From the NCBI GenBank assembly GCA_017460625.1, contig JAFUAT010000004.1, positions 62,001 through 126,000 on the forward strand: 64,000 bases of DNA, in the 5' to 3' direction. A program made the position numbers and the translations under genes. The stretch comes from Candidatus Saccharimonadota bacterium (GTDB lineage: Bacteria; Patescibacteriota; Saccharimonadia; Saccharimonadales; Saccharimonadaceae). The stretch's first letter is position 1. Each line of letters opens with the position of its first letter. The notes beneath the pieces are model-generated. The model was given only the letters and a program-made list of their open reading frames with translations. It had not been told where the DNA came from and did not search any database. Below are positions 7,992 through 64,000 of the stretch, in pieces.

Positions 7992-8171
7992 AATCACACC
8001 TCCAATTATATAGGCAAAAAATCTAAAAAGTTACTAGGTATATCTTTATTATATCACAAGTGTTTTGAATTGTCAATATTTTCACCTGGTGGGGCTATGT
8101 TGGCTATGCCTAGATATGGCCATTTGCAGTAGCAATATCAGATTGAATTTCTAAAAACTGGGGTTTTATGG

Positions 8172-25499: not shown

Positions 25500-25587
25500 G
25501 CTAGTTCATAATTCCATTATAGCATTTTTGTTTATTTTTGTCAAGTTATGCCTTAAAAAAATGTTGTAAAAACAAATAGGAATGTGT

Positions 25588-63053: not shown

Positions 63054-63578
63054 ATGAAACTAGTAGTAGGATTGGGTAATCCAGGAGAGAGATTTAACTT
63101 TACGCGGCACAATATGGGCTTTCTCGCGCTAGATTTTTATTTTAAGCGTAATAACCTTAGTTGGGATGAAAAACCGCGTCTTGGGGCCATAAATGGCCGT
63201 AAGGGCGATATTTTCTTTATTAAACCGCAGGATTATTATAATTTGTCGGGGCAGGCGGTTGCGGCTTTTTCGAAATATTACAAGATAAAAAATCCCGATA
63301 TTTTAGTGATTTGTGATAATTTTGACTTAGAACTAGGCAAAATTCGGTATCGCTCCTCAGGCTCATCCGGTGGCAATAATGGCCTAAAATCTGTAGATAA
63401 AGAGCTTGGGGGCACTGATTATGCACGACTTCGTATAGGTACTGCAAACCCAGATTTACAGGGAAAGATGAACGCGGTGGATTTTGTTTTGTCGCGTCTT
63501 ACCCCTGATGAAAAGAAACGCTTGCCAGAGATTTTGTCGGAAGTTTGTGACAAAATCGATGAGTTTATAGAGTCTTAA
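63054..63578 (+). CDS. pth: peptidyl-tRNA hydrolase
   Basis: Releases peptides from drop-off peptidyl-tRNA. KLVVGLGNPGERFNFTRHNMGF carries the Asn and catalytic His, KPQDYYNLSGQAV and ICDNFDLELGKIRYRSSGSSGGNNGLKSV the substrate-binding loop, ending with the short 174-residue C-terminus. The usual K-P-x-T-Y-M-N reads KPQDYYNLS here; otherwise complete. Single gene with leaderless promoter and an 18-bp terminator. Confidence 0.95.
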   Translation: MKLVVGLGNPGERFNFTRHNMGFLALDFYFKRNNLSWDEKPRLGAINGRKGDIFFIKPQDYYNLSGQAVAAFSKYYKIKNPDILVICDNFDLELGKIRYRSSGSSGGNNGLKSVDKELGGTDYARLRIGTANPDLQGKMNAVDFVLSRLTPDEKKRLPEILSEVCDKIDEFIES

Positions 63579-63579
63579 A

Positions 63580-63626
63580 CCAAAAAGAGCTCAGGTATGG
63601 GTGGGCACTACCTGAGCTCTTTTTGG
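63580..63626. terminator. bidirectional terminator between pth and the minus-strand RNA
   Basis: An 18-bp perfect stem (63580-63597 with 63609-63626) with A5/T5 on the arms and an 11-base loop. Confidence 0.93.
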
Positions 63627-63892
63627 CCCTCTAACGCTTCTCACTATACCGGGAGGAACCCCGGAAGCGCGACCCACCTCACACAAAATTGGGGCCCGCC
63701 GGTTAGAGGGATTGCTATGCCTTCGAAATATTCCTTTCAAAGTGGAGGTAATACTTATAACTTAAAACCTTTGAAGAAATTTTAAGCCTGAAAGGGTTTC
63801 AAAAGCACGCAATTTCTGCTATACTTGTGATAAGTATAGCGTTGAAATTATAACTTATTTAGGTGCGGTGTAGGGATTTTTTGTCCCTAACT
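63597..63892 (-). ncRNA. candidate highly expressed structured RNA on the minus strand, about 300 nt, unknown class
   Basis: Promoter with perfect TTGACA (63922-63927) and TATAAT (63899-63904), 17 bases apart, is the only full consensus pair I found in the window; it points at this stretch, which ends at a strong terminator. No convincing reading frame exists. Local stems include TAGGGA/TCCCTA (63873-63889 region), a 9-bp hairpin (63821-63843 region), CTTAAAA/TTTTAAG, and a long-range 9-bp helix (63702-63710 with 63627-63635) that closes a GC-rich domain of about 65 bases. The promoter-distal third is GC-rich, the rest A/U-rich. I could not match RNase P, tmRNA, SRP or 6S hallmarks. Beyond the promoter (63928-64000) I see nothing. 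Confidence 0.6.
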
Positions 63893-63898
63893 GCTATC

Positions 63899-63927
63899 AT
63901 TATATCACACAGGAGAAAATATGTCAA
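63899..63927 (-). promoter_or_regulatory. perfect sigma-70-type promoter, minus strand
   Basis: TTGACA, 17-base spacer with TGTGA before the -10, TATAAT. Predicted start about 63892. Confidence 0.85.
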
Positions 63928-64000
63928 CACTTTTTACACACTTTTTTACAAAAATCAACCATTTTTCACCCCTAGAGCATGATTTTACAGAGAAGTTAAG

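Follow-up and report, generated by a model that had tools for sequence, protein, structure and literature searches.

What is encoded on the minus strand of the gap between a peptidyl-tRNA hydrolase gene and a dprA-like gene at the end of a 64,000-nucleotide (nt) stretch of DNA from a Candidatus Saccharimonadota bacterium? The stretch, called the window below, covers C1:62001-126000 of the source genome (G000; 711,783 bases in 14 contigs). An initial annotation, made from the sequence alone, placed there a structured RNA, so far uncharacterised and different from the usual house-keeping RNAs. This reading is supported by negative Rfam searches, by covarying homologues, and by the lack of a conserved open reading frame (ORF); two findings named in advance as refuting it, a confident match in Rfam and a conserved small protein, did not turn up. 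On comparative evidence, the RNA gene is real. The gene is independent and non-coding, its product is structured, and a sigma-70-type promoter and an intrinsic terminator of its own are recognized by sequence. The RNA is new: it matches no Rfam family, and no description of it was found in the library of literature searched. The gene and its promoter are located as follows:

63582..63892, minus strand: RNA gene, about 311 nt, with homologues recovered using BLAST and the covariance models R1-R3; the start is presumed about 7 nt past the -10 box and the end at the T run
63899..63927, minus strand: RNA promoter, with the -35 box TTGACA at 63927-63922, a 17-nt spacer, and the -10 box TATAAT at 63904-63899

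The minus-strand promoter TTGACA-17-TATAAT at 63927-63899 is present exactly as annotated, and near-consensus boxes with the 17-nt spacer are kept in 97 of the 107 parsed homologous loci. However, the window holds other full consensus pairs, contrary to what had been claimed. Three perfect pairs were found, all on the minus strand (the other two at 8048-8076 and 25516-25544), against 0.05 expected by chance. The strong terminator is confirmed: a long GC-rich hairpin at about 63626-63587 is followed by T5 at 63586-63582. The predicted folding energy of the RNA is -112.8 kcal/mol (z = -7.0 versus shuffled sequences), to which the terminator contributes part. The statement that no gene follows the promoter also holds, since the stretch contains no convincing one. 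ORFs of 49 and 62 codons are found in it and could be taken in favor of a conserved small protein. However, across 44 loci of the same genus, no frame stays open through the core, the minimum stop-to-stop lengths being 4-18 amino acids. Insertions and deletions also break the frame. A conserved small protein is thus extremely unlikely.

The argument for the gene comes from its relatives. Using blastn, the 314-nt stretch was matched in 22 of 40 related genomes, all 22 belonging to the window's genus, and in none of the 16 relatives from other families. Covariance models reached further. Model R1, built from 22 sequences, matched 162 of the 294 class genomes searched. With R2, built from diverse genera, matches were obtained for 162 of 246 order genomes, spread over 90 of 132 genera and including 75 of 76 genomes of the family. 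R3, to which other families were added, was applied to a phylum-wide sample and matched all 32 genomes from the order as well as 3 of 5 from the rest of the class. Elsewhere in the phylum, R3 gave one match among about 340 genomes (G725, L167; 28.4 bits), which lies inside a reading frame, without synteny, and was treated as chance. The three weak matches at class level (L164, L165, and L166, with 39.7, 30.2, and 23 bits) overlap this score in range. All three have dprA or pth as a neighbor, with the orientation unchanged, and share a hairpin whose loop is CACCCUCC as well as a helix of the form CCCUU..AAGGG; given the chance match at 28.4 bits, L165 and L166 rest on synteny and layout, not on score. 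In an alignment, near-invariant blocks and a conserved promoter are seen, and covarying homologues occur throughout the order. The covariance-model searches nearly always found one copy per genome. In one assembly (G013), two differing copies lie on two contigs (L019 and L023), which may represent a second copy or mixed strains. Among named records, the terminator loop is confined almost entirely to Saccharibacteria. A record named Chloroflexi PMG_070 (L175) holds a typical Saccharibacteria copy (166.6 bits), and its contig is therefore probably misbinned. A match in Antrihabitans (L191) was rejected, being no more than a terminator-like hairpin.

From 5' to 3', the proposed fold consists of P1, a linker, P2, the long P3 arm bearing the L-hairpin, P6 enclosing a domain of variable size with P7, and P8. 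Its elements are the following:

63871..63889, minus strand: P1, the 5' hairpin, UAGGGA-loop-UCCCUA; pairing kept across the genus, sequence variable
63847..63870, minus strand: linker, predicted unpaired, conserved, CACCGCACCUAAAUAAGUUAUAAU; C-rich in other genera, CGCACCUUAUACCCCC
63812..63848, minus strand: P2 hairpin, AUUUC..GCUAUACUU..AAGUAUAGC..GAAAU; sequence variable
63797..63812, minus strand: 5' strand of P3, UUGCGUGCUUUUGAAA, with its partner at 63728-63712
63740..63756, minus strand: L-hairpin, stem AAGU/ACUU around the loop AUUACCUCC at 63752-63744
63712..63728, minus strand: 3' strand of P3, UUUCGAAGGCAUAGCAA
63702..63710, minus strand: 5' strand of P6, CCCUCUAAC
63692..63699, minus strand: 5' strand of P7, GCGGGCCC, with its partner at 63675-63667
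63672..63678, minus strand: G-rich element GGUGGGU, which could pair with GCCCACC of the terminator loop (possible pseudoknot)
63667..63675, minus strand: 3' strand of P7, GGGUCGCGC
63627..63635, minus strand: 3' strand of P6, GUUAGAGGG
63582..63626, minus strand: P8, the terminator hairpin, with the near-invariant loop UGCCCACCC, GCCCACC at 63606-63600, and T5

Over 42 pairs, standard pairing is seen in 98.8% of the cells of the genus alignment. Changes on both sides affect 9 pairs (26 cells), compared with 3.1 pairs (7.3 cells) in shuffled alignments and 0-1 in slid controls; the latter are more telling because the shuffles ignore relatedness. The P3 helix contributes 15 pairs, 5 of them changed on both sides and 97.9% of cells paired, and P6 contributes 9, of which 4 changed on both sides. 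The long-range helix 63702-63710/63627-63635 of the initial annotation is exact, and it is among the helices best supported by covariation. In P7, variation within the genus is limited to one side. Across about 80 loci, the stems of the L-hairpin, P6, and the terminator vary with pairing kept while their loops stay fixed. When the pairs of P6 and P8 were counted neutrally, G-U occurred in 144 cells and A-C in 4, and the minus strand is therefore the folding strand. In some genera (L089, L096-L098, and similar), the P6 domain is enlarged by an insert in which a GACUAUNCAGUAGUGA motif recurs, and CUGCGAG is a repeated loop sequence both in P1 and in inserts. Pairing of the 5' linker UUAUACCC with GGGUGUAA after P6, good in several loci of other families, was not adopted because it is not kept in the window's family.

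A tertiary contact is suggested by the motif GGUGGG, which is present in 104 of 107 homologues, where shuffled sequences would give about 4. Within the window's family, the motif is located in P7 or directly precedes the 3' strand of P6, and the family members seen without the first site have the second one or a close form. From sequence, a pseudoknot between GGUGGG and the terminator loop is plausible; since this loop hardly varies, the pairing comes without proof by covariation. The same motif could belong to a ribozyme or a structural switch, in which GGUGGG would pair with the terminator loop and GUUAG with CUAAC on either side of it. The arrangement CUAAC-GUUAG-CUAAC/U is indeed found in 27 of 41 loci from the family's other genera and in 15 of 22 loci from the order's other families. 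However, it is absent from the window's genus, the invariant terminator loop allows no covariation test, and the RNA holds no catalytic motif and no match to an Rfam ribozyme, so that we consider a switch or ribozyme quite improbable.

The genomic setting of the RNA raises another question, namely whether it acts in cis on a neighbor. The gene order der-pth-[RNA, divergent]-dprA-topA is constant in the window's family and beyond, and the two flanking genes of the window are:

63054..63578, plus strand: pth, encoding peptidyl-tRNA hydrolase, convergent with the RNA, MKLVVGLGNPGERFNFTRHN..
63921..64000, plus strand: dprA-like gene, cut by the window end, of 307 amino acids in the contig (L001:1842-2765), divergent from the RNA

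The label of the latter gene is based on its DprA-like sequence and its recurring position before topA, not on a family search. The RNA always lies beside dprA or its former place, and its -35 box overlaps with the start codon listed for the dprA-like ORF (ATGTCA at 63921), which would suit a dprA leader or antisense RNA, or a terminator region of pth. However, the G-U/A-C asymmetry assigns the fold to the strand that diverges from dprA. Moreover, 13 of the 69 loci retain the RNA although no dprA was found nearby, for example L083, L135, L144, and L151, where the order is pth-RNA-topA. The RNA is thus not an accessory of dprA, and on these two grounds the leader or antisense reading was rejected; any cis role for a neighbor, including pth (found in 56 of 69 loci), is regarded as very unlikely. 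At L140:4239-4296 (plus strand), upstream of topA, there is a match resembling a type III hammerhead ribozyme (37.8 bits, below the gathering score of 48.5).

If the RNA is independent, it could still be an extremely divergent form of a known housekeeping RNA, namely that of the signal recognition particle (SRP), RNase P RNA, transfer-messenger RNA (tmRNA), or 6S RNA, as its size, promoter, and ubiquity would allow. Searches with Rfam 15 gave no credible match to the RNA, either in the window at E = 10 or in 24 homologous loci at E = 0.5, and none at gathering score. Permissive thresholds yield chance matches only. The initial annotation had noted an absence of hallmark motifs of these four RNAs. 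The RNase P RNA (RF00010) of the source genome was found at C5:14918-15256 with 225.9 bits and its tmRNA (RF00023) at C5:11232-11589 with 86.3 bits, neither of them at the RNA locus, which effectively refutes both identities. The SRP RNA models (RF00169 and RF01854) gave no match at the locus or in the source genome. The large form was found in none of 20 genomes, and the small form gave one chance-level match (E 0.4) in 61 genomes of the class, so no credible SRP RNA was detected in these 61. The GTPase domain of Ffh and FtsY (PF00448) was not found in the source genome, while 14 of 14 control genomes were positive. As neither SRP GTPases nor SRP RNA were found, identity with SRP RNA was rejected. 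The absence of SRP has been reported for Parcubacteria (PMC4508563) and for many bacteria of the candidate phyla radiation (PMC8080830). The 6S RNA model (RF00013) gave no match in the source genome, but it detects only 5 of 14 control genomes, so this search is insensitive. Taken together, a divergent member of one of these four classes is highly improbable.

A functional rather than sequence relationship to 6S RNA deserves more attention. The RNA may be part of a ribonucleoprotein, as a regulator of RNA polymerase like 6S or the mycobacterial Ms1 RNA, or as a housekeeping scaffold, with its loops serving as protein or tertiary contacts. This would agree with its near-universal presence in the order in a single copy, its conserved near-consensus promoter, and its large core of several helices, as well as with the failure to find 6S RNA in the source genome, weak as that search is. 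However, a protein partner is hypothetical, and the architecture of 6S RNA, a single long hairpin with paired ends and a central bubble, is not matched, as the RNA has separate hairpins at its ends and the internal arms P3 and P6. We consider a role in a ribonucleoprotein rather unlikely, although the ubiquity of the RNA and the extent of its invariant core leave room for it.

What the RNA might do is suggested by its L-hairpin. The sequence CCUCC occurs in the loop of every parsed member and is predicted to be unpaired in 98% of loci; in 42 of 44 loci of the window's genus the loop is AUUACCUCC. The 3' tail of 16S rRNA in relatives is GGATTACCTCCTT; the rRNA ends in GGAUUACCUCCUU, bearing U at a site that is C in most bacteria. 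The tail was read in these relatives, since the search pattern was unmatched in the source genome, whose own 16S end was not seen. The ending GGAUUACCUCCUU in place of the usual GGAUCACCUCCUU is found at L171:1525-1537 and in G001, G003, G010, and G028-G030. With this U, the lineage's own anti-Shine-Dalgarno (anti-SD) tail agrees with the loop over nine bases. In other genera the loop has one extra C (UUACCCUCC, CUACCCUCC; the ..ACCCUCC type), and exact identity is therefore limited to the window's genus and a few neighbors. Start sites in the window are consistent with a use of this tail: 18 of 52 have at least 6 nt complementary to it, compared with about 5% of control sites. At about 10 of 52 start sites of long ORFs, a TATAAT-like box ends a few bases before ATG, which suggests that many mRNAs may be leaderless.

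We propose, with slightly less than even confidence, that this is a housekeeping RNA acting on translation, whose C-rich loops bind the Shine-Dalgarno (SD) sequences of mRNAs; its expression, abundance, mRNA pairing, and effect are inferred. In this model, an abundant RNA acting in trans would display several C-rich sites, namely the L-loop (AUUACCUCC here, ..ACCCUCC in other genera), the terminator loop UGCCCACCC, and, in many relatives, the C-rich 5' linker, and these sites would pair with SD sequences (GGAGG..) of mRNAs. In the window's genus, where the loop reproduces 9 nt of the 16S anti-SD tail exactly, the RNA would compete directly with the ribosome. Pairing of GGUGGG might cover or expose the terminator loop. 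As many genes of the window look SD-led or leaderless, the RNA could shift translation between these two classes.

Several points weigh against this proposal. Beyond the window's genus and a few that are close to it, the loop reads ACCCUCC, an inexact copy, though the 16S tail is unchanged there. The large invariant stretches (the P6-P7 region and GUGAGGUGGGUC) and the near-universal single copy suggest more than an antisense RNA, and small RNAs that bind SD sequences are mostly shorter and less widespread. Moreover, the match of AUUACCUCC was noticed post hoc, and the probability that it arose by chance cannot be cleanly stated. The copy of the tail could also have another purpose. The GTPase Era binds the 3' end of 16S rRNA, and the L-hairpin may be a decoy of this end that titrates a factor recognizing it, such as Era or ribosomal protein S1, rather than one that pairs with mRNAs. 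The exactness of the copy in the window's genus and the predicted exposure of the loop speak for such a decoy; however, other genera have the inserted C in the loop while their 16S tail stays the same, which makes it decidedly improbable in our view.

Saccharibacteria are widespread ultrasmall epibionts, present also in the human mouth, and their gene regulation is nearly unknown. A structured RNA kept in single copy across an order of strongly reduced genomes is probably indispensable to the cell. The covariance models and alignments allow its immediate annotation, and tests of expression and targets are practical because some members are closely related to oral strains in culture. The proposal of SD binding can be extended: a housekeeping RNA specific to Saccharibacteria, with its copy of the anti-SD tail, could globally balance SD-led against leaderless translation in these reduced, host-dependent cells. 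We regard this extension as unlikely; if true, such balancing by an RNA would be translation control of a kind not previously described.

How does the RNA compare with known systems? SRP RNA (4.5S RNA/scRNA) is a housekeeping RNA elsewhere, whereas none was detected in these genomes; Ffh and FtsY are absent from the source genome, and the RNA does not match the SRP models. OLE, ROOL, and GOLLD are large, structured, conserved bacterial RNAs whose function is not evident; the Saccharibacteria RNA is smaller, near-universal in one order, and without an Rfam match. Ms1 is about 300 nt long, and like 6S RNA and Ms1, the Saccharibacteria RNA is independent, present in single copy, and, judging by its sequence, strongly promoted. 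Unlike them, it lacks the long rod with a central bubble, its ends are not paired with each other, and Rfam has no match for it. The closest parallel to the proposed function comes from Listeria, where LhrC binds lapB mRNA at its SD region through UCCC sites, and from other small RNAs with UCCC motifs, RNAIII, RsaE, SprD, and FsrA, for which the SD sequence is the proposed target (PMC4132741). As in LhrC and RNAs of the RNAIII type, a C-rich motif lies in a loop predicted to be unpaired, and a separate promoter and an intrinsic terminator are recognized in the sequence. As in LhrC, there are three C-rich sites (a loop, a single-stranded stretch or linker, and the terminator loop), and it is this layout that leads us to favor an RNA pairing in trans with SD sequences. 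Unlike LhrC, the Saccharibacteria RNA is about 310 nt long with a large conserved core, is found order-wide in single copy outside any Rfam family, and carries a CCUCC loop that, in the window's genus, copies the 16S tail, its SD targets being predicted.
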